A program made the translations under genes and the position numbers. Shown here piece after piece: positions 48,717 to 60,608 of a DNA stretch of 64,000 nucleotides; the first letter of the stretch is position 1, and every line of letters begins with the position of its first letter. The notes beneath the pieces are model-generated. The model was not told the origin of the DNA. It searched no databases and saw nothing but the letters and a program-made list of their open reading frames with translations. The stretch is from Pseudoalteromonas sp. FUC4 (GTDB lineage: Bacteria; Pseudomonadota; Gammaproteobacteria; Enterobacterales; Alteromonadaceae): contig NZ_SEUI01000001.1 in NCBI RefSeq assembly GCF_008370255.1, forward strand, positions 835,823-899,822, written 5' to 3'.

Positions 48717-48739
48717 TTGATTTGCAATTTGCGAATCAA
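48717..48739. promoter_or_regulatory. Palindromic activator site (UAS) of the Tad-like cluster, copy 1
   Basis: TTGATTTGCA-ATT-TGCGAATCAA is a 10-bp inverted repeat with one mismatch. It matches the perfect copy at 51662-51684. It is centred ~70 bases upstream of the -24 element at 48798. Confidence 0.7.
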
Positions 48740-48796
48740 AATAATAAAACACACTTTTTCACATATTAATGCATTGATAATAAAGCTAAAAGCGTT

Positions 48797-48812
48797 TGGT
48801 CTCATACTTGCT
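48797..48812 (+). promoter_or_regulatory. Sigma-54 promoter of the secretin gene
   Basis: TGGTCTCATACTTGCT has GG at 48798-48799 and GC at 48810-48811 with N10 between, matching the -24/-12 consensus (TGGCAC-N5-TTGCA/T) at TGG and TTGCT. The start of transcription would be ~35 bases before the ATG at 48846. Confidence 0.65.
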
Positions 48813-48845
48813 ACCTATACATTAAGCAAATTGAGGGAAAGGCTT

Positions 48846-50765
48846 ATGTTAAAATTTACTTTTATACTATTACTAATATCTTTTAGTGCTATGGGCAGTG
48901 AAAGTCATTTAGATTATATAGAAAATGCAAATGGTGAGCGGGTACAAAAAGTATCACACTTAGTTAAATGGACACATACTCGCTTTGTGTTTACCCGTGA
49001 TATTTCGCGTATAGCACTTGGCCATGAAACAACACTTGATGTGAACGTGGTTAATGGTCGCGAGCTACTAATTTTAGCTAAAAAATTAGGCCGTACATCT
49101 ATGATGGTGTGGTACGACGATAAAAGCTCGGAAACATTTTTACTTGGTGTTACCGAAGACTATAGCGTACTGGAAAATGCCCTCAACGATATTCACCCTG
49201 ACGTGCAGCTAACTATAGCCCCCGATCGCCATGCTGTTGTATTACGCGGTGAAGTACCTACTATAAATTACCGTCATGCCGCTTACGAGGCTGCAAAAAA
49301 CTACCTATACGCCAGTAGCTCACAAGCATCACAGCCCGTTATTACCTCAAACCCTAACCAAGGAATGTTTAATTCACTTGCTCAACGCTTGCAAGGGTTG
49401 GGTAACACAAACGGTGGTACCTCTCAAAACTCGAGCAAAGTCGCTATTATTAATTTAATAAAAGTGACTCAAGCACCCAAGCCTAAAGAAGAACGTATTA
49501 GCGAAGTTATTAAATCAATGGGTGCAGATAAGGTTAAAATTAAACGCATCTCCGTTGATGAGCTATCAAATGATGATAGCGATGTATTTTTACTGTCAGG
49601 CTCTGTAAAAAATCAGATAGAGCTAGTGCGCTTATTAAATACAATTAATAAATTATTCGAACCAGAGCAAGCATTACAAACTCAGGGCTCTCCCCTTGAT
49701 CCTAATAATTTAATGAGTGGCGCAACACAAGATAAAAGTGCAGGTATTGAAGTACTTGCCAACGAGTCGGGTGGCTTAATAAATGATGCTACCTCAGGAT
49801 TAAACTTAAGTAATGTAAGCTCTAATATTGCAAGAGCAACGTTGCTTTCGGTGGCTGGCGGTAAAGTTTTGTCGAGCATTGAAGTTGAAGATTTACCCCA
49901 AGTGCGTGTGTCGGTGCAGCTATACGAAGTAAATCAACGTAGATTAAAGCAATGGCGCCCAGATATTAGCGTGCTTTCTAATGGGTATGAAAAAGAAGCG
50001 GGATTGTTTGGTCGTGACGGTATGACTGAACGCGAATCAGGCTCTGCAACAATAGAAAACGCGCTTCAATTAATTGGTGGTCAATTAACTAATAACTTAC
50101 AGCTTTCTACCTCACAGTTTGCCATTGATATGTTGTTTTCATTACTTGAACAAGAAGGTATTTCTCGAACGCTTTCTCGCCCAACAATCACGGTTTTAGC
50201 CGGAGAAAGTGCCGTATTTAAGGTTGGTGGAGAAGTACCCGTACCTACAAGTTATAGCCCTTCAGGAATTACAAGCGGGCAGCAAGGTAGTAGTGGTTCG
50301 GTGTTTAGTGGTACAGAATTTAAATCATTTGGAGTTGAATTAAATGTACGCGCCATGGTTGACGACAAAGACAGAATAACACTTGATCTAAACCCCGTAA
50401 TTTCATTACCCGATACCACGTTAACCGCTGAAATTGCACAAAGCACAGGCAGCAGTTTAAACAGTAGTGCATTTAATACACGCAGCATGCAAACATCAAC
50501 ACGTTTAAAAGACGGACAACCTCTTATTATTGGTGGCTTAATTAGCACCGATAACAACGCAAGCCACGACTTTGTGCCTGATGGCAACGGCAATAGCATG
50601 TTAGGAAAGTTAAGCGAGACAACCAGTAAAAGTGAAAACAACCGCGAGCTTATAATTGTTGTAACTCCAAACCTGGTGCGCGAGCCAATTAATACATTAC
50701 GTTCGTGGGAACAAGCAAATATAGACAACCAGATACTTAGCTATATACAGGAGCAAGGGCTATGA
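48846..50765 (+). CDS. Secretin of a Tad-like (type IVc) system, CpaC/RcpA-like
   Basis: This is a 639-residue outer-membrane secretin. I choose the ATG at 48846 (GAGGG eight bases upstream), which gives signal peptide MLKFTFILLLISFSAMGS; the in-frame start at 48717 would lie in the operator. N-domains (~30-130, ...SHLVKWTHTRFVFTRDISRIALG) carry the Tad T2SS-N-like segment, followed by a long Ser/Gly/Asn-rich region and the C-terminal secretin domain (~440-620): FSLLEQEGISRTLSRPTITVLAGESAVFKVGGEVPVPT, GVELNVRAMVDDKDRITLDLNPVIS and GQPLIIGGLIS. It overlaps the next gene by four bases. Confidence 0.88.
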   Translation: MLKFTFILLLISFSAMGSESHLDYIENANGERVQKVSHLVKWTHTRFVFTRDISRIALGHETTLDVNVVNGRELLILAKKLGRTSMMVWYDDKSSETFLLGVTEDYSVLENALNDIHPDVQLTIAPDRHAVVLRGEVPTINYRHAAYEAAKNYLYASSSQASQPVITSNPNQGMFNSLAQRLQGLGNTNGGTSQNSSKVAIINLIKVTQAPKPKEERISEVIKSMGADKVKIKRISVDELSNDDSDVFLLSGSVKNQIELVRLLNTINKLFEPEQALQTQGSPLDPNNLMSGATQDKSAGIEVLANESGGLINDATSGLNLSNVSSNIARATLLSVAGGKVLSSIEVEDLPQVRVSVQLYEVNQRRLKQWRPDISVLSNGYEKEAGLFGRDGMTERESGSATIENALQLIGGQLTNNLQLSTSQFAIDMLFSLLEQEGISRTLSRPTITVLAGESAVFKVGGEVPVPTSYSPSGITSGQQGSSGSVFSGTEFKSFGVELNVRAMVDDKDRITLDLNPVISLPDTTLTAEIAQSTGSSLNSSAFNTRSMQTSTRLKDGQPLIIGGLISTDNNASHDFVPDGNGNSMLGKLSETTSKSENNRELIIVVTPNLVREPINTLRSWEQANIDNQILSYIQEQGL

Positions 50766-51439
50766 AAATACTTTATATAATTTTACTGCTTACTTTATCG
50801 GGTTGCGCTCATATTGATTACAAGCCAACAGTAAATCCTTACAACGCGTTGGGTGACATAGTTAATAAATACCAATTAAACGCCCAACCATTAAAGTGCG
50901 AAGGTATTAATGCAAGTAACTGTTTAAACCTAGTGCATGAGGTGAATCAGTTAATGCTTGAACACCCCGATAACACGGCAATACTTTCAATATCAGCATA
51001 TGTACTTTATAAAAGTGGCCGTGCTAATCAATCTCAACAGGTTATAAACACTCTACTTAATAAAGCTAACCCGCCGCTAAGCGCAATTACTTTAGGAGTC
51101 ACTTTAGCAATTGAGCAAGGTAATTTAGCTAAAGCAAAAAGCATTGCCCAATACGGTGTAGATGTTTTTGGTACACATGCTTCACCATACCTGCAAATGG
51201 CTTCTATACATTATGCCCAGGGCAACTACGTTGTAGCTTCAAACTATTTAGAGCTTTCGGTTAAGTTTGGTTTAAATAGTACCGCCTATTTTTATCATAA
51301 AGGGCTAATTGAAGAAGCTAATACCAATAATTTATTGGCTTGTGGCTACTATGAGCAAGTTTTACGTGTCGAGCCCACGCATCAAAAAGCACTTGCTAGG
51401 CGCGGTAAACTCTCTGTTTTAGGTAATTGTTATTCTTAA
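50762..51439 (+). CDS. TadD-like TPR lipoprotein
   Basis: This is a 225-residue lipoprotein: MKILYIILLLTLSGC is the signal peptide with lipobox L-S-G-C. About four tetratricopeptide repeats follow (~50-210, e.g. AILSISAYVLYKSGRANQSQQVINTLL and ASPYLQMASIHYAQGNYVVASNYLELSVKFG). TadD proteins help secretin assembly. Translation is coupled to the secretin (ATGA), and a terminator ends this first transcription unit. It has one Cys pair (KCEGINASNCLNL). Confidence 0.8.
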   Translation: MKILYIILLLTLSGCAHIDYKPTVNPYNALGDIVNKYQLNAQPLKCEGINASNCLNLVHEVNQLMLEHPDNTAILSISAYVLYKSGRANQSQQVINTLLNKANPPLSAITLGVTLAIEQGNLAKAKSIAQYGVDVFGTHASPYLQMASIHYAQGNYVVASNYLELSVKFGLNSTAYFYHKGLIEEANTNNLLACGYYEQVLRVEPTHQKALARRGKLSVLGNCYS

Positions 51440-51458
51440 GGCCTTCGGGCCTTTTTTT
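51438..51458 (+). terminator. Terminator after tadD-like gene
   Basis: AAGGCC-TTCG-GGCCTT with a T-run; the UUCG tetraloop makes it very stable. It separates the secretin/TadD unit from the pilin operon. Confidence 0.9.
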
Positions 51459-51661
51459 ATACCTAAAATTTGGCAATATTAAGGAGCCAAAACCACCTTA
51501 TTATTTATCAAAAATAGTAGTAAAGCTTACGCTAATCATACGTTTTATAAGTTACCCCACAATACCGCTTTTAATATTTAACCCCTTTTTGAGCACCTAT
51601 TAGTTTTAATAATTTAACAGAGCATCTTTAACATTAAGTATCTAAAAATCATTTTTTAATA

Positions 51662-51684
51662 TTGATTTGCATTTTGCAAATCAA
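51662..51684. promoter_or_regulatory. Palindromic activator site (UAS), copy 2 (perfect)
   Basis: TTGATTTGCA-TTT-TGCAAATCAA: perfect 10-bp arms, 3-base spacer. It is centred ~82 bases upstream of the -24 element, one helical turn more than copy 1. Confidence 0.75.
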
Positions 51685-51753
51685 AAGTAAAAACAGCTAA
51701 AGGGCACATTACAAAAATACATTAACCGCATGTATTAAAAGGTTTTTATTAGT

Positions 51754-51769
51754 TGGCATGCTCCTCGCA
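51754..51769 (+). promoter_or_regulatory. Sigma-54 promoter of the pilin operon
   Basis: TGGCATGCTCCTCGCA has GG at 51755-51756 and GC at 51767-51768 with N10 between; TGGCA and GCA match consensus. The ATG at 51815 lies 46 bases downstream of it. Confidence 0.7.
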
Positions 51770-51814
51770 ATATATAAAGTGAGCATAAGCTCTTCTAATT
51801 TAAAGGCTACGATT

Positions 51815-52204
51815 ATGAAAACTATTAAACATAACTTAAATAGCAAAAAGCAAAAAGGTTTTGTACTAACGTCAGAGCTAATCATTCTTTCTACTTCAAT
51901 GGTAGCGGCACTTGTAATTGGTTTATCTACATTACGTGACTCGGTAACCAGCGAACTTGAAGATGTAGCTGAAGCAATTGGCTCACTTGACCAAAGCTAT
52001 GTATTTGACGGAATGATTAACGCCGAAGGAACAGCTGAAGTGTCTGGCTCAGGCTTTGTAGATTCAGTTGATGTGTACGCAGGCGATGGTAGTTCATTCA
52101 CTTTTGTTGCATCAGACTTTAGTGAAAATGCGGCACTTATTAGTGCAACACCAAGTGGTGATGCTGCAACGCGTACAGCAGCAGGCGGTTCGCAAGGTAA
52201 CTAA
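51815..52204 (+). CDS. Pilin-like protein (probable major subunit)
   Basis: This is a 129-residue protein. The start at ATG 51815 has AAAGG eight bases upstream; the open frame from 51758 runs through the promoter. A basic leader (NSKKQKG) is followed by FVLTSELIILSTSMVAALVIGLSTL, a prepilin-like helix with a Glu. The Glu is at +6 relative to the putative cut after Gly, not +5. The remainder is acidic, Ser/Gly-rich and lacks Cys (VSGSGFVDSVDVYAGDGSSFTF). It is the first gene of its operon and is followed by a stable hairpin, which fits high expression. Not a typical Flp. Confidence 0.65.
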   Translation: MKTIKHNLNSKKQKGFVLTSELIILSTSMVAALVIGLSTLRDSVTSELEDVAEAIGSLDQSYVFDGMINAEGTAEVSGSGFVDSVDVYAGDGSSFTFVASDFSENAALISATPSGDAATRTAAGGSQGN

Positions 52205-52241
52205 CGCAAGGTAAGTAGGTTTGAATACCAAGCTTAAGGCT

Positions 52242-52265
52242 CACTGCCACAAAAGTGTGGCAGTG
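52242..52265 (+). repeat. Intercistronic stem-loop after the pilin gene
   Basis: CACTGCCACA-AAAG-TGTGGCAGTG: 10-bp perfect stem with no T-run, just before GGAGG of the next gene. It probably stabilises the upstream pilin mRNA or dampens downstream expression. Confidence 0.6.
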
Positions 52266-52287
52266 AAAGTTACTCTGGAGGAATATT

Positions 52288-53055
52288 ATGAAAAGTAAAA
52301 GTAACAAAGGCGCAACCACAGCGGCTCTCACATTACTCATCACCTCTGGCATGTTAGCTTCGGCTTTGGGTATTAGACAGGTAAACGATGAAAATAGCGT
52401 AACAGCTTGGGTAGTAAACAAAAATATGTCGGTCGGTCAAACAGTAACCGTTCACGATGTAGAGCAAAAGAGTATAGATCCAAGTAACTATTCAAATATT
52501 GCACTGAGCGTTCAAAACCCACGTGCACTAATTGGTCAAAAATTAGCAACTAATAAAATGGTTGAACAACCACTATTTGACACAGATTTTATTAGAGCAA
52601 AAAGCCAAAATTTATCAGAAGCGATACCGGCAGGGCGTGTTTTATATACTTTAAAACTAAATACCTTAGATATTCCGCTTTCGCGTATACACAAAGGTGA
52701 CCGACTCGACATAGTCGCTAAAACTAATCGTCTAGTAAGAACAGTTGCCCGTGATGTACAACTCATTGGTGTTTCAAAAGGCCCTAAATCGCAAGCCGCT
52801 AAAAGTGGCGTAATGGATAACTTAGCTAAAGAGTCTAATTCTGCTGCGGGCGGTGTGTCATTAGTCCTTGCGGTACTTCCAAAAGATGTTTATTCGTTGG
52901 CGGGTATAGATAACGCCGACAAAGTTTCAATTATTGTGCATAGCGCTTATGACATTGAACAAGGTCGTTTGCAAAACTTTTCACGCTTACAAACCAGTCG
53001 CACAATCGAAGTGGTTAAAGGCGTTAAAAATGAAGCTGTATATGTAGCTAAGTGA
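52288..53055 (+). CDS. CpaB/RcpC-like pilus assembly protein
   Basis: This is a 255-residue protein with an N-terminal anchor (LTLLITSGMLASALGI, ~13-29) and a SAF domain (~45-110: AWVVNKNMSVGQTVTVHDVEQKSIDPSNY, then LIGQKLATNKMVEQPLFDTDFI). The RcpC/CpaB core follows (RVLYTLKLNTLDIPLSRIHKGDRLDIVAK, VSLVLAVLPKDVYSLAGIDNADKVSIIVH). CpaB sits between the secretin and inner-membrane parts. Six bases separate it from the ATPase gene. Confidence 0.85.
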   Translation: MKSKSNKGATTAALTLLITSGMLASALGIRQVNDENSVTAWVVNKNMSVGQTVTVHDVEQKSIDPSNYSNIALSVQNPRALIGQKLATNKMVEQPLFDTDFIRAKSQNLSEAIPAGRVLYTLKLNTLDIPLSRIHKGDRLDIVAKTNRLVRTVARDVQLIGVSKGPKSQAAKSGVMDNLAKESNSAAGGVSLVLAVLPKDVYSLAGIDNADKVSIIVHSAYDIEQGRLQNFSRLQTSRTIEVVKGVKNEAVYVAK

Positions 53056-53061
53056 GTTTTT

Positions 53062-54360
53062 ATGTTTAATTTATCAAGCAAACATGAAGAAGTTCAAACC
53101 AGTTTAAGTACCTTTGAAGAGCTTAAAAAGCTATTACACGATGCCGTTATCGAAGAGTACGAACAAGAACCAACCGCGCTTTTATCAAGTAATGTTCTCG
53201 AAAAAATTTCTGCACTTTGCAGTGAAATTCCACAATTTAATCAATCTTCATTTAATCAACACCAACAAGAACAGGTTGTTCAGGCTGTGTTTGATGAAAT
53301 TCAAGGCCTGGGTCCTATTGCACAGTTTATGCTGGACGACCAGGTAAGTGATATTTTAATAAACGACACGCAAGATATATGGATTGATAAACAAGGCAAG
53401 CTACTTTGCACTGCCAGTAAGTTTGATGACGAACGTCATTTACGCCGATTTGTTGATCGCTTACTTGATGGTTGTGGCCGCCAAGTCAATGCGCTTATGC
53501 CAATTGTTGATGGCAAACTAAAAGATGGTAGCCGTGTTCATATTATTGTACCGCCTGCGTGTACCAGCGCAGCTATTGTATCGATTCGTAAGTTTAATCA
53601 TAAAAAAATAAACGATGACTTTTTAGTTAATAACCATTTTTTAGATAAAAACATCTTATCATTTTTAAAAAGTGCAGTTAAAACAGGCGTTAATATTTTA
53701 GTATGTGGCAATGCAGGTGCAGGTAAAACGTCGTTATTAAATGTACTTGCTAACTCTATTAACCCAAATGAACGTGTTGTCACCATTGAAGAAAGCGCTG
53801 AGCTTAATTTGCATCATAACCACGTTGTTCAATTAGAAGCCCACGACACAAACAGCGATGGTAAAGGCGCTGTAAGCCTAAGAGATTTAGTAAAAGCAGC
53901 TCTTAGAATGCGCGCCGATAGAATACTTGTTGGTGAGGTACGCTCAGGCGAGGTAATCGATATGCTCCAAGCAATGAACTGTGGTCACCAAGGTTCGATG
54001 ACGACTATACATGCTAATAGCGCAAATGATGCCGTTATTCGTTTATCTACCTTGGTACAACTACACAATGCACAACTGAGCGATACCCATACAAGTTCGT
54101 TAATTGCGTCGAGCATTCAACTTATAGTGCATGTTTCTCGCTCAACTAATGGTACCCGAACTCTAAAAAGTATTGGTGAAATTAAGCGTGTTAATGGCGG
54201 CGCACATTTTAGCCCGCTTTATAGTATTAACGAAGCAGAGCCTGTACAAAATGAGTTAATAGATAACTCAAGTGTTATTGAGTTTATGAAAGGCCAAGGC
54301 GCAAATGAAAAAGAATTAAAAGCATTACTACACACTAACCTGGAGGCTAATAATGACTAA
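53062..54360 (+). CDS. CpaF/TadA-like secretion ATPase
   Basis: This is a 432-residue hexameric ATPase that powers pilus assembly or secretion. FDEIQGLGPIAQFMLDDQVSDILINDTQDIWID is the TadA N-domain signature. The P-loop CGNAGAGKTSLLN (~215-227), acidic Asp box VTIEESAEL, Walker B RILVGEVRSGEVIDMLQAMNCGHQGSMTTIHANSANDA (with the histidine-box HANS) and the C-terminal domain all match. It overlaps tadB by 8 bases. Confidence 0.92.
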   Translation: MFNLSSKHEEVQTSLSTFEELKKLLHDAVIEEYEQEPTALLSSNVLEKISALCSEIPQFNQSSFNQHQQEQVVQAVFDEIQGLGPIAQFMLDDQVSDILINDTQDIWIDKQGKLLCTASKFDDERHLRRFVDRLLDGCGRQVNALMPIVDGKLKDGSRVHIIVPPACTSAAIVSIRKFNHKKINDDFLVNNHFLDKNILSFLKSAVKTGVNILVCGNAGAGKTSLLNVLANSINPNERVVTIEESAELNLHHNHVVQLEAHDTNSDGKGAVSLRDLVKAALRMRADRILVGEVRSGEVIDMLQAMNCGHQGSMTTIHANSANDAVIRLSTLVQLHNAQLSDTHTSSLIASSIQLIVHVSRSTNGTRTLKSIGEIKRVNGGAHFSPLYSINEAEPVQNELIDNSSVIEFMKGQGANEKELKALLHTNLEANND

Positions 54361-55228
54361 ACTTGATTATTTATTAGCTATAGCAACGGTTATTACTTTT
54401 GTACTTGCAGCTAGTGTGTTGGTTTCTTTGTATGCTAAAAATAAAAGTAACCAGAGCGCTAAAAAAGTAGATATTTTAGAAGAAAAAGACGTACTTACTT
54501 TGTCACTACGAGTGCTAGGCTTAAACATAAGTAACGCTTGGTTTATAAGCATGGCGTGCTCGCTCTCTAGTAGTTCATGGTTTTTAGCTAAATTATATTA
54601 CCCTGAGGCATCAACCAGCGCGTTTATTATTTCAATCGTGGTTTTTGTAACCTGTTTTATAACTGTGATAGACCTTGCTCATTATAAATTAGCAAAATTT
54701 GAACATCATTTTTTAGAATTTATTGAAACCGTACAATCGTGTTTAAGTACGGGGCTGTCGCTACAACAATCAATGCAGTTTGCTGATGAACATGCAGACT
54801 CATATATAAAAACACAAAGCTCTTTGCTATTACAACGCATGAGCATGGGGAGCGATGCAGAAACATCGTTTGCTCCATTAATTGAAAGATACAACTGCGA
54901 GACTGTAAGACTATTTGCTCATAGCATCATCACACATACACAAAGCCAGTGCGATTTAACCGACATGCTAAAAAGCGTATGTAACATGATGTCGCTTCGC
55001 ACCCTCGACCGCCAACAGTTAAAAGCAAAGCTTTCGGGTACTAAGTACGCTGCTGTATTTAGTGGTTTTTTACCTTATGCACTAATTCCTTTATTTAGCT
55101 ATACCGATCCAACCTGGTTTGAACCTTTATTAAACGATCCTAATGGGATTGCATTTATAACGGTTGCGCTTCTTTGTCAGCTATTTGGCTTTTTATGGCT
55201 ACGCCTTAGCTTAAGGGTAACATTATGA
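54353..55228 (+). CDS. TadB-like inner-membrane assembly protein
   Basis: This is a 291-residue protein. One N-terminal helix (~5-26) and two central ones (~57-75, 81-105) precede the T2SSF-like cytoplasmic domain (FLEFIETVQSCLSTGLSLQQSMQFADEHAD...ETSFAPLIERYNCETVRLFAHSII), and two C-terminal helices end it. The domain is the polytopic platform that works with CpaF. It overlaps both neighbours. Confidence 0.87.
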   Translation: MTKLDYLLAIATVITFVLAASVLVSLYAKNKSNQSAKKVDILEEKDVLTLSLRVLGLNISNAWFISMACSLSSSSWFLAKLYYPEASTSAFIISIVVFVTCFITVIDLAHYKLAKFEHHFLEFIETVQSCLSTGLSLQQSMQFADEHADSYIKTQSSLLLQRMSMGSDAETSFAPLIERYNCETVRLFAHSIITHTQSQCDLTDMLKSVCNMMSLRTLDRQQLKAKLSGTKYAAVFSGFLPYALIPLFSYTDPTWFEPLLNDPNGIAFITVALLCQLFGFLWLRLSLRVTL

Positions 55229-56040
55229 TTGATATACTTTTACTTATCGGACTTTTAGTAAGTATGGGCTCATTTATCCATATTCATAGGCAATCTCTTA
55301 AAGTCGAATTAGATAAACCTGATACTAAAAACATTAATTGGTATCCGCTAATCATCATCTCTAAACGTCAATTAAGACAAGCAGGGATTCAAATTAATAA
55401 AATATTAATAAGCCTGTACTGCTTTAAAGTGGCTGCTACTTTTAGTGCATTTACGGTTATAGAACTAACAGGGTATGAGCTGAGCCAATCAATTAAATTA
55501 TTGCTGTGTTTTATGTGTTTTTTTGCACCCGAATGCTGGTTTTTATTACGTAAAAATCAACGTAAAACCGTTATAAATAATAGTTTAGAGTTTTTTTTAC
55601 GGGTGTTACTGGTTTATATGCGCGCTGGATTTTCGTTAGAACGTTCATTTGCACTAGCAGTTGATCATGGATTAAGTCAAAAACACCCATTATACAAAGA
55701 ACTAAAGTTATTTTTATTCGAGCTTAGCGCAGGTAAAGATCGTGAATTTGCATTTAATTCACTTTTTGAAAGAACCGGCGTATTAGGAATTAAAAAGCTC
55801 GCCAACTTAATGTTAATAGGCTCAAAGCTTGGTACGCCACTTATCCAAGCAGTAGAGGCTCAACTTGAAGGCCTAGCTCTAAAAAAGAATATTTTACTCG
55901 CTAAAAAGGTAAACAAAAAAGCGATGCACACAACCTTTCCCATTATCTTAATTTGCTTTCCGATGTTTTTGGTATTGGTGTTTTTTCCCGCCGCATTACA
56001 AGTAATGAACGTACTTAAAATGCTTGTAGAAGTGTTATAG
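55225..56040 (+). CDS. TadC-like inner-membrane assembly protein
   Basis: This is a 271-residue T2SSF-fold protein. An N-terminal helix (1-~17), a ~60-residue loop, two helices (~70-110), then the cytoplasmic domain (LEFFLRVLLVYMRAGFSLERSFALAVDHG...FNSLFERTGVLGIKKLANLMLIGSKLGTPLIQAVEAQLEGL) and the C-terminal helix IILICFPMFLVLVFFPAALQVMNV. TadB and TadC together form the platform. It overlaps tadB by four bases. Confidence 0.87.
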   Translation: MIDILLLIGLLVSMGSFIHIHRQSLKVELDKPDTKNINWYPLIIISKRQLRQAGIQINKILISLYCFKVAATFSAFTVIELTGYELSQSIKLLLCFMCFFAPECWFLLRKNQRKTVINNSLEFFLRVLLVYMRAGFSLERSFALAVDHGLSQKHPLYKELKLFLFELSAGKDREFAFNSLFERTGVLGIKKLANLMLIGSKLGTPLIQAVEAQLEGLALKKNILLAKKVNKKAMHTTFPIILICFPMFLVLVFFPAALQVMNVLKMLVEVL

Positions 56041-56049
56041 GAGCCTGAT

Positions 56050-57216
56050 ATGAAAAAGCATTATCAACAAGGGTACATACTTACTATTGAGCTTATATTA
56101 ATTATAACAATTTTAATTATTGGCTCAATTGGCGGGGTGGTTTTAGTAAGGGACGCACTTATTAAGCGTCATCAAACTAAGGTAGATAATCAAATTACCG
56201 TAGTCGATGCTAATAACAAACCACTCGGTATTGCAGTAAGTTTTGATGAGCACCAAGCACCACTCATATTTTATACAGACCGTGGAGCAAACAACACGTA
56301 CAGGGCATTAATAGGCATACGAGATGATAGGTTTACCTCGCGAGAAGCTGTTTATTACGATGCTCCAAATTGCCAAGGTAACCCCTGTTTAAAGGGCTTA
56401 AGCGACGAAGCAACCGATAGCCAAGGTGTGAGCAAGTTAAATAATACCGGTAATGTGAGTTATATAAATGCGCTGCAGCAGGGTCCAAATTACGCAATAG
56501 GGCAGTTAGGTAATACCGTTATTGGTCAGTTATTAAGAAGTACGCCACAACAATGCCCTGCTAATAGTGAACAAATCCTATCTCGTTATGTATCACAAAA
56601 AGTAGTAACAGGCTCACCTTGTGAAAGCTTTGAAATAGATAAACAACCGGCCGACAGCAGTTGTTTAGTTGGAGTAACAGCGTTGGGTAATCCACTTTTA
56701 GGTACAAGCGATCAAGGTTTATCGCAGTCATGTGATACATGCCAAGCAGGGTACGAATCGCAAGGTGACATACTTGATTTATATTTACCACAGGTAGAGC
56801 CGCTTTTAAATACAACCCTAAATGCGCTTTCATTAGTTGGTATAGGAACAAATGTTGATATAGAGCTAGGTACAATATGCTGTCCAGAAGGTACACGCTT
56901 AGAAGAAGATGAAAACATTGTTGAGACACTTGTTTTCACTGTTTTAAAAACAACATTTGAGCTGGTCGGTATCGACTTAGTCAACAACCTTATTATTAGC
57001 GAAACACTAAGCTTAATAGGTATTGAGCCAGGCGTTACATACTGTAAAACATCACTGAATTTAGTAAATGCAGAACAAGTAATTAATATCACCACAGGCG
57101 AACCTGCACTTAGTAGCTTAACACCACCATTTAAAGTTTTACTGCCAGTACATAGCGGCCAAAACAGTACAACGTGGATACATACTCCCCCAAAAGGGGA
57201 AGGAGAACGTCAATGA
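56050..57216 (+). CDS. Large Cys-rich pilin-like protein (possible minor pilin or tip adhesin)
   Basis: This is a 388-residue protein. The leader MKKHYQQGYILTIELILIITILIIGSIGGVVLV repeats the odd prepilin-like motif of the first pilin (G-Y-I-L-T-x-E-L; Glu at +6). The rest is an exported domain with many Cys (PNCQGNPCLKG, QQCPANSEQ, GSPCESFE, SSCLVGV, QSCDTCQAG, ICCPEG, YCKT), so it is probably disulfide-stabilised. I do not recognise the domain. Position at the end of the assembly genes suggests a minor pilin or adhesive tip. It overlaps the next gene by four bases. Confidence 0.6.
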   Translation: MKKHYQQGYILTIELILIITILIIGSIGGVVLVRDALIKRHQTKVDNQITVVDANNKPLGIAVSFDEHQAPLIFYTDRGANNTYRALIGIRDDRFTSREAVYYDAPNCQGNPCLKGLSDEATDSQGVSKLNNTGNVSYINALQQGPNYAIGQLGNTVIGQLLRSTPQQCPANSEQILSRYVSQKVVTGSPCESFEIDKQPADSSCLVGVTALGNPLLGTSDQGLSQSCDTCQAGYESQGDILDLYLPQVEPLLNTTLNALSLVGIGTNVDIELGTICCPEGTRLEEDENIVETLVFTVLKTTFELVGIDLVNNLIISETLSLIGIEPGVTYCKTSLNLVNAEQVINITTGEPALSSLTPPFKVLLPVHSGQNSTTWIHTPPKGEGERQ

Positions 57217-60083
57217 ACGCCTCAAATATATTTACCTCACATGCTAATTTATCAGATACACACACTGATGAAATATCAACAGAAATTAAAGAAACCCTGA
57301 CATTACTAAAACAATTTTATGATGTACCTATTGTTAAATTTATCGACTTTAGAGAAGTTTATTCAGAGCAACTAATAACTTGCAACGATGAAGAAAGCGT
57401 CGAAAATGAGTTATTAAATTATCAACAGCGCTGTACAGAAGAAAAATTATATTTGTTCGAAGATACATTTTTTGATGATATATCAAACAACACTCATAAA
57501 TTAATTCGTTTTTATGCGCAATATCCAATTTATAATACGACTAATAAAATAATTGGTGTATTACTAATGGCAGATTTAGCACCTAAAACATTAATAGGCT
57601 CACAAAAAGATCAGTTTATTTCATTTTCTCAATTGTTACAGACACAACTAAATAAAGGGTCAGATTCAGTAGTTAATCAAAGTGCTAAATCGGCAAGAAA
57701 AAATCATGGAGAAAAGTATATTCATGTATTTAGTTTAGCGCCCGTCGCTTTTTTAATTGCATTAGTATTATGCTCATTCACTGCATTACTACTTTATACT
57801 ATTGAAAAAAAAGAACTGCAAAGTAATTATAATCAACAAAATCAGCAATTACGTAAAACGTTATTTAATGCATTAGAGCGATTTGATAATCAGGGGTTGT
57901 ATATATCGCAAAAAGATTTAGTCATAGCAGGCTTTTTGCAAAGCCAAAATAGTTATACAAAAGAGCAGCTTAACAATTTAGTGCAAAGCCAGGTATCAAA
58001 AAACTTAACTTACAAAGGGTATGTTGTGTTTGATTCTGATTATAATCAGCTTGCACTATGGTCAAAAAATAATTTTGATTTAGCCGCGTATGGATTTACT
58101 AACTGGTTAGAAAAATTTAATAAAAGAGCAAATAAACAAGCCGTAGAAGTATTTACGGTTGCTGATACTGCCTTCTTAATTTCTGAAATAAATATAAAAC
58201 AAGGCTCAATTTATACACTTACTGCATTTGATTTAAGTAAGTTTTTAAAAGCCGTTATTGGAAAATTAAACACTGAGAATTATAACGTTTTTATAGTAAC
58301 ACCTCAGTTTACTTTAGGAAAACAAGGAGAAGTTAATCCGAGCATAATTAAAAATAGTATTAGCGCTTTAAGCAGTCGTTTTCCACCTACTTGGCGCTTA
58401 CATGTGCAACCTATGAATAAAATAGTAAGACCAAAAATAACTAAATACAGTTTAGTTAGATTAGGACTGATTGCCTTTTGTGTATTCGCGTTTGTGTACT
58501 ATTTTTTACGTTTACCTAGGCGTTTACACAATGAAATAAAACAAAAAAATCAGTTAATACTTAATAGGGAAGAGCTTTTTTCAAGTTCTCTTGATGCGCT
58601 TCCGCATGGGTTTGCTATTTTTAATAGCCACGAATTTCCTGTGATTACCAACAATGCATTTAATCTTTTATTTGCTCAAGTGAATAAACAGAACAGTCAG
58701 CTATCGTATAGCCAGCTGATAAGTATTGCACAGCAAAATAATATTATAAATCATTACCATGAGCATCATAAGCTTGATAATGACCGTAACCAATTAATAG
58801 ATATAGGTTTTACAGACGGGAAATGGATTACTGTATTACAAAGGCATACAGATTTTAATGGTTTTGTTTGCTACTTTAGAGATGATACAGAGGCACATCA
58901 AAAAGAATGTTTACTCGCTGATGTTCTTGAAAAATCTAAGCAAACAAATCAATTAAAAGAAAAGTTTGTTACAAGGCTTAGTCGTCAATTAAAAACGCCT
59001 TTATCATCTTTAAAGTCATTAATTGAAATATCTAAAGATCCAATAAGCTTTAACGAATTTAAAAACAATGTGGGTAATATTTCTGATGTGTGCGACCAGC
59101 TTGAAAGTGTGATTCAACAGCTCGTAAATATAAATAAATCAGAGATCGGGAAGTTAAAACTTCAAGCTAAAAACGTTAATCTAAAAAAACTGATCAATAA
59201 TAACATGTCAATTTTAACGAAAGAGGCTGAAAGTAATAAAATAGTTTTTAAAAATAATATTACATCTGAATTAACGGTAGCAAGTGATGAAAAGTTAATT
59301 TCTCAATTGGTTATCCAGTTAGTGACTGAGGTTTTGGATTCGTCAAACAATACTACGCTTTCAATTAACGCCGAGATTAAAAAAGAAAGTACTCGTAATT
59401 ACCTACATCTCGATTTTTCATTAAGTAATTTAATTAATACGAGCCATTTTATAACTGAGCTTAAAAGCATTTCGGGTGATGATATAACACGCTTTATAGA
59501 TGATAAAGATATGTCATTAGAGTTAAAGTTTTTTATATCAATATTTAAAATGCTTGGTGGGAAAGCGTTAATTATTAGCAGTAGTGCAAATAAAACGACG
59601 ATATCACTTTCTATATTGGTAAACCTGGGAAGCAAGCAAATAAAAGATGAGGAAAAAGAAGTATTAAATAGTCGATTAACAACTACCGATTTAGTAAATA
59701 CTAATCCATTAACTAATAAAGAACAAAACACGCTATTACTAGTTGATGACGATCCACTTGTTGAGATTGTTATTAGAGCAATGCTAAAAAATGAAAACAT
59801 TAAAATAGATTACGCGTGCAGCGCAATTGAAGCAATGCTGATGGTATCTCAAAATAGTTACGACATTATTTTAATGGACATAGTAATGCCGGAATTATCA
59901 GGTACTGATGCTATGTTAAAAATTAAAAAACACAGTGATAATTCTAAAACTAAGATAATTGCACATACATCAACCCCAGATACTGAATCTAAATATATAA
60001 ACCAGGGCTTTGACGACATGCTATTAAAACCGGTAAAACAAGGAATATTAATAAACCAAATAGCACGTATTTTAAAAAGATAG
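57213..60083 (+). CDS. Hybrid sensor kinase-like protein with degenerate kinase core (GAF-TM-PAS-HisKA*-REC)
   Basis: This is a 956-residue protein. AAGGAG lies seven bases before the ATG at 57213. Domains: GAF-like (~20-150; FYDVPIVKF...IRFYAQYPIYNTTNKIIGVLLMADL), TM1 (~170-197), periplasmic region, TM2 (~414-435), PAS-like (~449-570), HisKA-like (~582-645), HATPase-like remnant (~670-830), receiver (~838-956, Asp889 in ILMDIVMP; Lys in LLKPVK). In the HisKA motif the usual SHELRTPL reads SRQLKTPL: the phosphoacceptor His is Arg. The N-box (NLLxNA) reads QLVTEVLDSS, and no DxGxG is seen. Catalysis is therefore unlikely. Translation is coupled to the pilus genes. Confidence 0.85.
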   Translation: MNASNIFTSHANLSDTHTDEISTEIKETLTLLKQFYDVPIVKFIDFREVYSEQLITCNDEESVENELLNYQQRCTEEKLYLFEDTFFDDISNNTHKLIRFYAQYPIYNTTNKIIGVLLMADLAPKTLIGSQKDQFISFSQLLQTQLNKGSDSVVNQSAKSARKNHGEKYIHVFSLAPVAFLIALVLCSFTALLLYTIEKKELQSNYNQQNQQLRKTLFNALERFDNQGLYISQKDLVIAGFLQSQNSYTKEQLNNLVQSQVSKNLTYKGYVVFDSDYNQLALWSKNNFDLAAYGFTNWLEKFNKRANKQAVEVFTVADTAFLISEINIKQGSIYTLTAFDLSKFLKAVIGKLNTENYNVFIVTPQFTLGKQGEVNPSIIKNSISALSSRFPPTWRLHVQPMNKIVRPKITKYSLVRLGLIAFCVFAFVYYFLRLPRRLHNEIKQKNQLILNREELFSSSLDALPHGFAIFNSHEFPVITNNAFNLLFAQVNKQNSQLSYSQLISIAQQNNIINHYHEHHKLDNDRNQLIDIGFTDGKWITVLQRHTDFNGFVCYFRDDTEAHQKECLLADVLEKSKQTNQLKEKFVTRLSRQLKTPLSSLKSLIEISKDPISFNEFKNNVGNISDVCDQLESVIQQLVNINKSEIGKLKLQAKNVNLKKLINNNMSILTKEAESNKIVFKNNITSELTVASDEKLISQLVIQLVTEVLDSSNNTTLSINAEIKKESTRNYLHLDFSLSNLINTSHFITELKSISGDDITRFIDDKDMSLELKFFISIFKMLGGKALIISSSANKTTISLSILVNLGSKQIKDEEKEVLNSRLTTTDLVNTNPLTNKEQNTLLLVDDDPLVEIVIRAMLKNENIKIDYACSAIEAMLMVSQNSYDIILMDIVMPELSGTDAMLKIKKHSDNSKTKIIAHTSTPDTESKYINQGFDDMLLKPVKQGILINQIARILKR

Positions 60084-60091
60084 GCCGCTAT

Positions 60092-60146
60092 ACCAACCGT
60101 CTTAATGCAGATTTTATTTAACGATAAAATATTAATGTCGGTTGGT
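60092..60146 (+). repeat. 55-base imperfect palindrome between the two REC genes
   Basis: ACCAACCG (60092-60099) pairs with CGGTTGGT (60139-60146); TTAAT/ATTAA and ATTTTAT/ATAAAAT (60111-60117, 60124-60130) continue the stem around TTAACG. It could be a miniature mobile element or mRNA structure separating the kinase and receiver genes. Confidence 0.6.
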
Positions 60147-60179
60147 GTTACATATAGCGTAATATATTCGAGGTAAAAA

Positions 60180-60608
60180 ATGAAAAACACGATTGAAGAT
60201 ACGATAAAAGTTATCGGATTTAATACAGTAAAACCTATAAATAAAACTACACGACTACTTTTAGTTGATGATGATTTGCTAATAGAAATTGTAATACGAA
60301 AAATGCTTAAAGAAGAAAACATATTAATAGATTTTGCATCCAGTGCTATAGAGGCACTATTAATGGTTTCTCAAAACATTTACGATATTATTTTAATGGA
60401 TATAGTCATGCCACAATTTACGGGCACCGACGCAATGCTAAAAATAAGAAAGTACGCTGATGCATCAGCAACAAAAATTATTGCGCATACATTTAGTGAG
60501 AACGAAAATAGTAATAATAAATATATAAAGCTTGGGTTTAATGGGTTGTTATTAAAGCCAGTTAAGCAAAGTGTATTAATTGAAAATATTAGATCTTTCT
60601 CAAAGTGA
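60180..60608 (+). CDS. Stand-alone response regulator receiver, duplicate of the hybrid kinase REC
   Basis: This is a 142-residue single-domain receiver (Asp74 in IILMDIVMP; DDD acidic pocket 30-32; Lys in LLLKPVK). No output domain. The domain is strikingly similar to the C-terminal REC of the preceding gene (shared stretches EIVIR, SAIEA, MVSQN, YDIILMDIVMP, GTDAMLKI, TKIIAHT), so one arose from the other by duplication. Residues 1-22 are a different N-terminal tail. It could compete for phosphate or act as a phosphate sink. Confidence 0.88.
   Translation: MKNTIEDTIKVIGFNTVKPINKTTRLLLVDDDLLIEIVIRKMLKEENILIDFASSAIEALLMVSQNIYDIILMDIVMPQFTGTDAMLKIRKYADASATKIIAHTFSENENSNNKYIKLGFNGLLLKPVKQSVLIENIRSFSK

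Follow-up and report, generated by a model that had tools for sequence, protein, structure and literature searches.

What switches on the pilus genes of Pseudoalteromonas sp. FUC4? The question is raised by a 64,000-nucleotide stretch of its genome (contig NZ_SEUI01000001.1, positions 835,823 to 899,822; the whole stretch is referred to here as the window), which contains a Tad-like pilus locus at 48717-60608. According to gene calls and family searches, the locus consists of two predicted operons. The first (48846-51439) encodes a secretin and a TPR protein, and the second (51815-60608) a small prepilin, RcpC-, TadA-, TadB- and TadC-like proteins, a 388-amino-acid (aa) protein, a hybrid-kinase-like protein and a single-domain response regulator. 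An initial annotation had assigned to them two sigma-54 promoters with one shared palindromic enhancer and had postulated an activator encoded elsewhere in the genome (4.33 Mb, 16 contigs). Our analysis indicates that the window palindromes are very probably enhancers at which a sigma-54 activator of the LuxO superfamily, encoded on contig C14 (C14:7916-9313), would act to drive both pilus operons. The elements concerned are the following.

48717..48739, + strand: enhancer palindrome 1, TTGATTTGCA-ATT-TGCGAATCAA, with the LuxO-type core TTGCAATTTGCGA (pattern search, conservation)
48797..48812, + strand: sigma-54-type promoter 1, TGGTCTCATACTTGCT (GG 48798-48799, GC 48810-48811)
51662..51684, + strand: enhancer palindrome 2, TTGATTTGCA-TTT-TGCAAATCAA, with the core TTGCATTTTGCAA (pattern search, conservation)
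51754..51769, + strand: sigma-54-type promoter 2, TGGCATGCTCCTCGCA (GG 51755-51756, GC 51767-51768)

Both copies match the 23-bp palindrome TTGATTTGCA-N3-TGC(A/G)AATCAA exactly, no third place is present in the window at up to 3 mismatches, and the pattern did not occur in any of 100 shuffles. The initially reported distances to the GG-N10-GC elements hold if they are counted from the palindrome centre to the first G (70 bp before the secretin gene and 82 bp before the pilin gene; 58 and 70 from the palindrome end), and each element is followed by a start codon. Both promoters possess the conserved GG and GC of the TGGCAC-N5-TTGC-like -24/-12 consensus. In a promoter score from 0 to 9 (consensus match over GG-N10-G(C/A)), promoter 2 reaches 7, a score of at least 7 being found for 5 window sites on both strands. 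By score alone, the promoters are thus unremarkable; it is their position and conservation that place them above chance.

This conservation was followed in an alignment of 12 upstream regions (the window and 11 other rows, with identity given as the mean versus the window). Upstream of the secretin gene, the palindrome is 86% and the -24/-12 core 91% identical, as compared with 52% for the rest (one row, L138, stops short of the secretin promoter and lowers that average); upstream of the pilin gene, the corresponding values are 93%, 99% and 61%. The palindrome and the -24/-12 elements are therefore conserved footprints. The spacings are restricted to a few values as well: 70 (7/11) or 82 (4/11) in the 11 Pseudoalteromonas loci showing the secretin promoter, and 82 (6/12), 80 (5/12) or 70 (1/12) before the pilin gene in 12 loci. 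Furthermore, among 86 palindromes from 29 loci, 73 are accompanied by a sigma-54-like site at a distance of 60-150 bp, whereas this applies to 481 of 5410 A+T-rich control positions (8.9%); note that orthologous sites among the 86 are not independent, and that there are 5410 instead of 5800 controls since some loci contain few A+T-rich stretches. The 29 loci comprise the window part, L006, L039-L044, L129-L137, L139-L147 and L149-L151; L038, L138 and L148 (from the same genomes as L139, L043 and L044, respectively), L152 and L153 were omitted.

A chance repeat without function could be imagined for a sequence that is palindromic and A+T-rich, but its absence from shuffles and the conservation of its place and spacing across related genomes leave this explanation with a negligible probability. 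Chance and repeat-element readings were rejected on these grounds (shuffles and conservation in relatives). The 12-base difference between the two spacings had also been taken to mean that both sites face the same side of the helix. This argument proved weak: for 29 spacing values typed by hand, the Rayleigh test gives p ~0.02 at a repeat of 10.5 bp and 0.32 at 10.0 bp, and ~0.14 for the five spacings of the genome itself. Helical phasing was rejected as proof.

An activator of the postulated kind does exist elsewhere in the genome, and copies of the palindrome lie beside its gene.

C14:7916-9313: LuxO-like sigma-54 activator (NCBIfam and Pfam)

The protein contains receiver, AAA+ sigma-54 activation and Fis-type DNA-binding domains, all above the Pfam cut-off; its best NCBIfam model is LuxO (582.9 bits), followed by NtrC (384), and it is 97% identical to its counterpart in P. 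distincta ATCC 700518, by which we assign the genome to the vicinity of that species. The adjacent HPt protein has LuxU as its best NCBIfam match (49 bits, cut-off 140). The LuxO enhancer is described as TTGCA-N3-TGCAA (PMC3352281, PMC10162802), and the palindrome core fits this operator, ahead of sigma-54-type promoters; the core of window site 2 even has the same letters as the Vibrio cholerae LuxO site ttgcattttgcaa given for qrr3 (PMC10328515). Judged by its sequence, the enhancer is thus of a known type, that of LuxO, which corrects the initial annotation. Eleven LuxO residues are described as critical for DNA binding (PMC11407668). The C14 activator retains 9 of these, as compared with 11 in each of the four scored Vibrionaceae LuxO rows and 3 to 7 in the genome's 12 remaining strong sigma-54 activators.

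If up to 3 mismatches are allowed, the scan of the whole genome for the palindrome, which the initial annotation had proposed, yields 8 forward matches and 7 reverse ones, as compared with 3 and 4 for the reversed control. Outside the window there are four sites on C14 (770, 5689, 6446 and 7439, with 1-3 mismatches), while C11 and C12 each have a single place with 3 mismatches; such 3-mismatch places are unsafe taken alone, as the reversed control yields 3 forward and 4 reverse matches, too. A shorter core with one mismatch is not enriched (22 places versus 36 in the control), and information comes from its 4 exact places alone. At the beginning of C14 there are genes for a 345-aa response regulator, a hydrolase (isochorismatase-like as read without a family search), a PAS hybrid kinase, a 96-aa prepilin-like protein, an EAL protein, an HPt protein and the sigma-54 activator. 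Three of the C14 sites precede sigma-54-like elements, located before the genes for the 345-aa regulator (TGGCACATAACTTGAT), the second pilin (TGGCACGACTTTCGCA) and the EAL protein (TGGCCTGTAAATTGCT). This second small prepilin-like gene (L006:5893-6183) is located in the regulatory locus, apart from the Tad genes, and has its own palindrome and the best sigma-54 score of the set (8). The proposal of two sigma-54 promoters sharing one enhancer thus gains comparative support but is too narrow, given three more promoter-like sites on C14.

The fourth C14 site, before hpt-luxO, lacks a sigma-54-like element, and the same applies to this site in 12 of 14 loci (hand count; exceptions L039 and L145); the thirteenth promoterless palindrome (L144:10063) is located before a response-regulator gene. 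These promoterless copies, together with the frequency of score-5 GG-N10-G(C/A) sites, would be expected if the palindrome belonged to a regulator unrelated to sigma-54 (e.g., a repressor) and the GG-N10-GC matches were incidental. However, the fixed spacings, the conserved -24/-12 elements and the sigma-54-like sites near 73 of 86 palindromes, versus 8.9% of controls, make this very unlikely.

One RpoN match and 13 strong sigma-54 activator matches were found in the genome, and both operons could be controlled by sigma-54 and the palindrome through another of these activators, the C14 protein serving C14 alone. Sharing of sites by such proteins is known, as V. fischeri qrr1 is reported to be activated by both LuxO and SypG via overlapping sites (PMC10162802). 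Nevertheless, we regard this explanation as quite improbable: none of the remaining 12 activators retains more than 7 of the LuxO DNA-contact residues, the same palindrome adjoins the luxO-like gene on C14, and activator and pilus cluster co-occur and are linked in other genera.

Indeed, the activator gene is located within ~10 kb of Tad-like genes in Shewanella ulleungensis, Psychromonas sp. SP041, Pseudomaricurvus alcaniphilus, Spongiibacter thalassae and Pseudoalteromonas sp. 0303, and in four of these five genomes the palindrome precedes the pilin gene. The regulatory locus retrieved for P. distincta and for P. sp. P1-25 is separate from the Tad genes, as in the genome studied here. With the gene for the 388-aa protein as a marker for the cluster, 11 of 108 genus genomes are positive; the activator (E<=1e-150, a threshold of our choice) is present in 14 of 108, including all 11 marker-positive ones. 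The palindrome with up to one mismatch was read off the listing for 14/14 activator-positive genomes and for 1/94 others (G209). Three activator-positive genomes do not have the marker: in G212 the genes between rcpC and the kinase gene are missing, G233 retains just parts of a secretin-like gene next to the activator gene, and in G208 the regulatory locus alone was examined. Decay of the system is visible in relatives (L149, L151, L150), i.e. the interrupted activator gene of G151, the missing genes of G212 and the secretin fragments of G233. As a separate observation, G233 (L152:9423) and G209 (L153:7909) each have a one-mismatch palindrome and, at a spacing of 91 and 89, respectively, a good sigma-54-like site; the genes behind these sites may form a chaperone-usher pilus operon, as read without a family search, and G209 has no activator at the threshold used. 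Among 369 genomes drawn from the class, the marker was found in the FUC4 genome only, and the system is therefore patchy. At the level of the family, a 3-mismatch pattern scan was uninformative (113/147 genomes match, and the control pattern is found in many as well), and a secretin search matched 147/147 genomes, but among the matches listed only that of FUC4 is full length; the others are partial at <=35% identity and therefore look like other secretins.

An obvious alternative is that the C14 protein is an ordinary Vibrio-type quorum-sensing LuxO acting via Qrr RNAs, with the pilus sites being minor ones; the LuxU-like HPt protein next to it and the common operator would fit. However, in a tree the activators linked to Tad genes group together as a seven-member clade (99/99). 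This clade lies outside that of the Vibrionaceae LuxO proteins (100/99) and also outside a Vibrio clade of three (100/100), in which one protein (L082, the only one inspected in this respect) has a syp-like neighbourhood. The tree contains 29-30 of 80 relative loci (hand-picked beyond near-identical rows), 9 activators of the FUC4 genome and the C14 one, whereas the 3 remaining FUC4 activators were used for residue scoring only. Furthermore, no Qrr RNA was found above the cut-off in 108 genus genomes or in the FUC4 genome itself (stricter filters), and the two sub-threshold matches (38 and 36 bits, cut-off 50) come from two activator-negative genomes; as a positive control, the Qrr model was found next to luxO in four Vibrionaceae loci. 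In addition, the activator is absent from 94/108 genus genomes at the threshold used. A Qrr-type circuit is thus extremely unlikely. Because of the separate clades and the absence of Qrr at the cut-off, we do not file the C14 activator as LuxO or SypG, even though it would act like LuxO.

Several observations weigh against the C14 activator as the regulator of both operons. As a sigma-54 match, the secretin promoter is mediocre, with a score of just 5, which is shared by 57 window sites, and the promoter-like element before the gene for the 345-aa regulator has GA instead of GC at -12. The activator itself falls short of the LuxO equivalog cut-off (582.9 versus 800 bits), and L073, another LuxO-superfamily protein, also keeps 9 of the 11 DNA-binding residues, so that the recognition helix marks the superfamily and not LuxO alone. 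In Pseudomaricurvus, no site is present in the 397 bases available upstream of the pilin gene, and the two sites nearer the activator gene are weaker. At two mismatches, the palindrome occurs in 31/108 genomes, the 16 extra ones being without the activator, and G151 possesses both window-type sites together with the interrupted activator gene. Moreover, the genomes are related by descent, and their counts are not independent.

The genes of the two operons are listed below; the Tad names are provisional, being drawn from general families and gene order.

48846..50765, + strand: secretin, RcpA-like (Pfam Secretin 107 bits, plus T2SS-T3SS_pil_N)
50762..51439, + strand: TPR protein with a lipoprotein-like N-terminus, TadD-like by our naming (Pfam TPR_19 34 bits)
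51815..52204, + strand: small prepilin-like protein, 129 aa, KG-FVLTSELIILS (alignment with 5 relatives)
52288..53055, + strand: RcpC/CpaB-like protein (TIGR03177 36.5 bits, cut-off 71; PF16976 17.6 bits, cut-off 28.8; below both cut-offs)
53062..54360, + strand: assembly ATPase, TadA-like by context (Pfam T2SSE 171 bits)
54353..55228, + strand: T2SSF-family membrane protein, TadB-like by context (Pfam T2SSF 37.8 bits)
55225..56040, + strand: T2SSF-family membrane protein, TadC-like by context (Pfam T2SSF 22.3 bits, below the cut-off of 25.2)
56050..57216, + strand: 388-aa protein with a prepilin-like start, QQGYILTIELILIIT (alignment with 5 relatives)
57174..60083, + strand: hybrid-kinase-like protein (family search; H-box FVTRLSRQLKTPL, Arg for His)
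60180..60608, + strand: single-domain response regulator (Pfam Response_reg 72.7 bits)

The secretin, ATPase and T2SSF genes bear out the initial description of the cluster as Tad-like, but several canonical Tad genes are not seen: no match to TadZ, the TadV peptidase or TadE/F was found among the proteins of the cluster and its flanks, the scope of this search. The pilus is thus best called Tad-like, and a complete Tad system would be too strong a claim. The small prepilin-like protein has no Pfam (at 0.1) or NCBIfam match and hence no Flp-family assignment. The 388-aa protein, for which Pfam and NCBIfam searches gave no family match either and whose structure model is poor (mean predicted local distance difference test score, pLDDT, of 50), is probably a large minor pilin. 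In the prepilin-like starts of both proteins (KG-FVLTSEL and QG-YILTIEL), Glu is at +6 from the presumed cleavage site; in prepilins it is usually found at +5. An element GAGC-ATAA-GCTC (51779-51800) is conserved in the predicted leader of the pilin transcript, and its folding energy is no better than that of shuffles. No ATPase domain was found in the hybrid-kinase-like protein even at E<=1, and its H-box Arg also occurs in L129, L131 and L151 (the pattern is unmatched in other relatives); it is probably a pseudokinase with a receiver.

In the mechanism that we propose, the PAS hybrid kinase would pass phosphate to the LuxU-like HPt protein and further to the LuxO-like activator. The Arg in place of the H-box His and the lack of an ATPase domain in the window protein make the C14 kinase the more likely working kinase, and as it has no hydrophobic segment above the threshold used, an internal signal fits it better than a role as membrane autoinducer receptor. 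The activator would bind the palindrome 70-82 bp (centre to GG) 5' of GG-N10-GC and open the sigma-54 RNA polymerase complex, which implies dependence on RpoN. The secretin-TPR operon and the pilin-rcpC-tadABC-minor pilin-kinase/receiver operon would thereby be switched on jointly, allowing a functional pilus to be assembled, and on C14 the same switch may drive the second pilin-like gene, the EAL gene and the response-regulator/hydrolase/kinase operon. The palindrome before hpt-luxO, mostly without a sigma-54-like site, probably serves feedback. The presence of an EAL gene in the predicted regulon suggests that cyclic diguanylate (c-di-GMP) is lowered during pilus production.

A broader scenario is possible, although we consider it somewhat doubtful: the Tad-linked activators may represent a third LuxO-superfamily branch next to LuxO and SypG, a dedicated Tad-like pilus switch in which a PAS phosphorelay and c-di-GMP breakdown are coupled to assembly without Qrr RNAs. 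The regulon would then be split over two loci in Pseudoalteromonas and joined by the operator, and direct control of surface adhesion may be the earlier role within the superfamily, with Qrr-based quorum sensing having adopted the same operator later. The ancestral part relies on a midpoint-rooted tree, in which the relevant fork is weak (88/32).

The novelty appears to lie in a LuxO-type switch being coupled to a Tad-like pilus, the promoter type itself being known. Among the matches listed, titles and abstract openings of the open-licence literature do not report LuxO-type or sigma-54 control of a Tad locus. The Tad locus of Pectobacterium is described as controlled by an adjacent two-component system (PMC3767616), and Caulobacter pilA as controlled by CtrA. 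In Aliivibrio salmonicida, tad genes are reported to rise in luxI and ainS mutants (PMC6499059), so quorum-sensing effects on tad are not new as such. Expression of rpoN and of a luxO gene, which may or may not be the one considered here, has been measured in Pseudoalteromonas (PMC6275029), and the main text of that article contains no word starting with Tad or pili. The route proposed here would provide concrete sigma-54 control of a Tad-like pilus, with a testable regulon of about five promoters.

Compared with known systems, the cluster resembles Tad/Flp (type IVc) loci in its secretin, T2SSE ATPase, two T2SSF proteins (one just under the cut-off), RcpC-like and TPR proteins and small prepilin, but differs in the missing Flp-family match of the pilin and in the lack of TadZ, TadV and TadE/F matches among the cluster proteins searched. 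With the Vibrio LuxU-LuxO-Qrr relay, the proposed control system shares a receiver-AAA+-Fis activator, an HPt partner, sigma-54 promoters and the TTGCA-N3-TGCAA operator. However, its apparent targets are genes for the pilus and for signalling, Qrr RNAs at the cut-off were not found in the genus genomes, the activator belongs to a separate clade, and the PAS kinase of C14 has no hydrophobic segment above the threshold. LuxO is known as an activator of a few small RNAs (five peaks, four of them at qrr genes, are reported from V. cholerae LuxO chromatin immunoprecipitation sequencing; PMC10328515), whereas in the present case direct control of an adhesive-pilus regulon from the same operator appears to be exerted by a LuxO-type protein. 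For SypG and syp in Vibrio, a LuxO-superfamily activator is likewise described as directly switching a biofilm/surface locus via sigma-54 (PMC10162802, PMC6499059); the Vibrio group with a syp-like neighbourhood (inspected for L082) forms a separate clade (100/100), and the target here is a pilus. The three systems together would represent a case of one operator and phosphorelay being reused for small RNAs, polysaccharide and pili.

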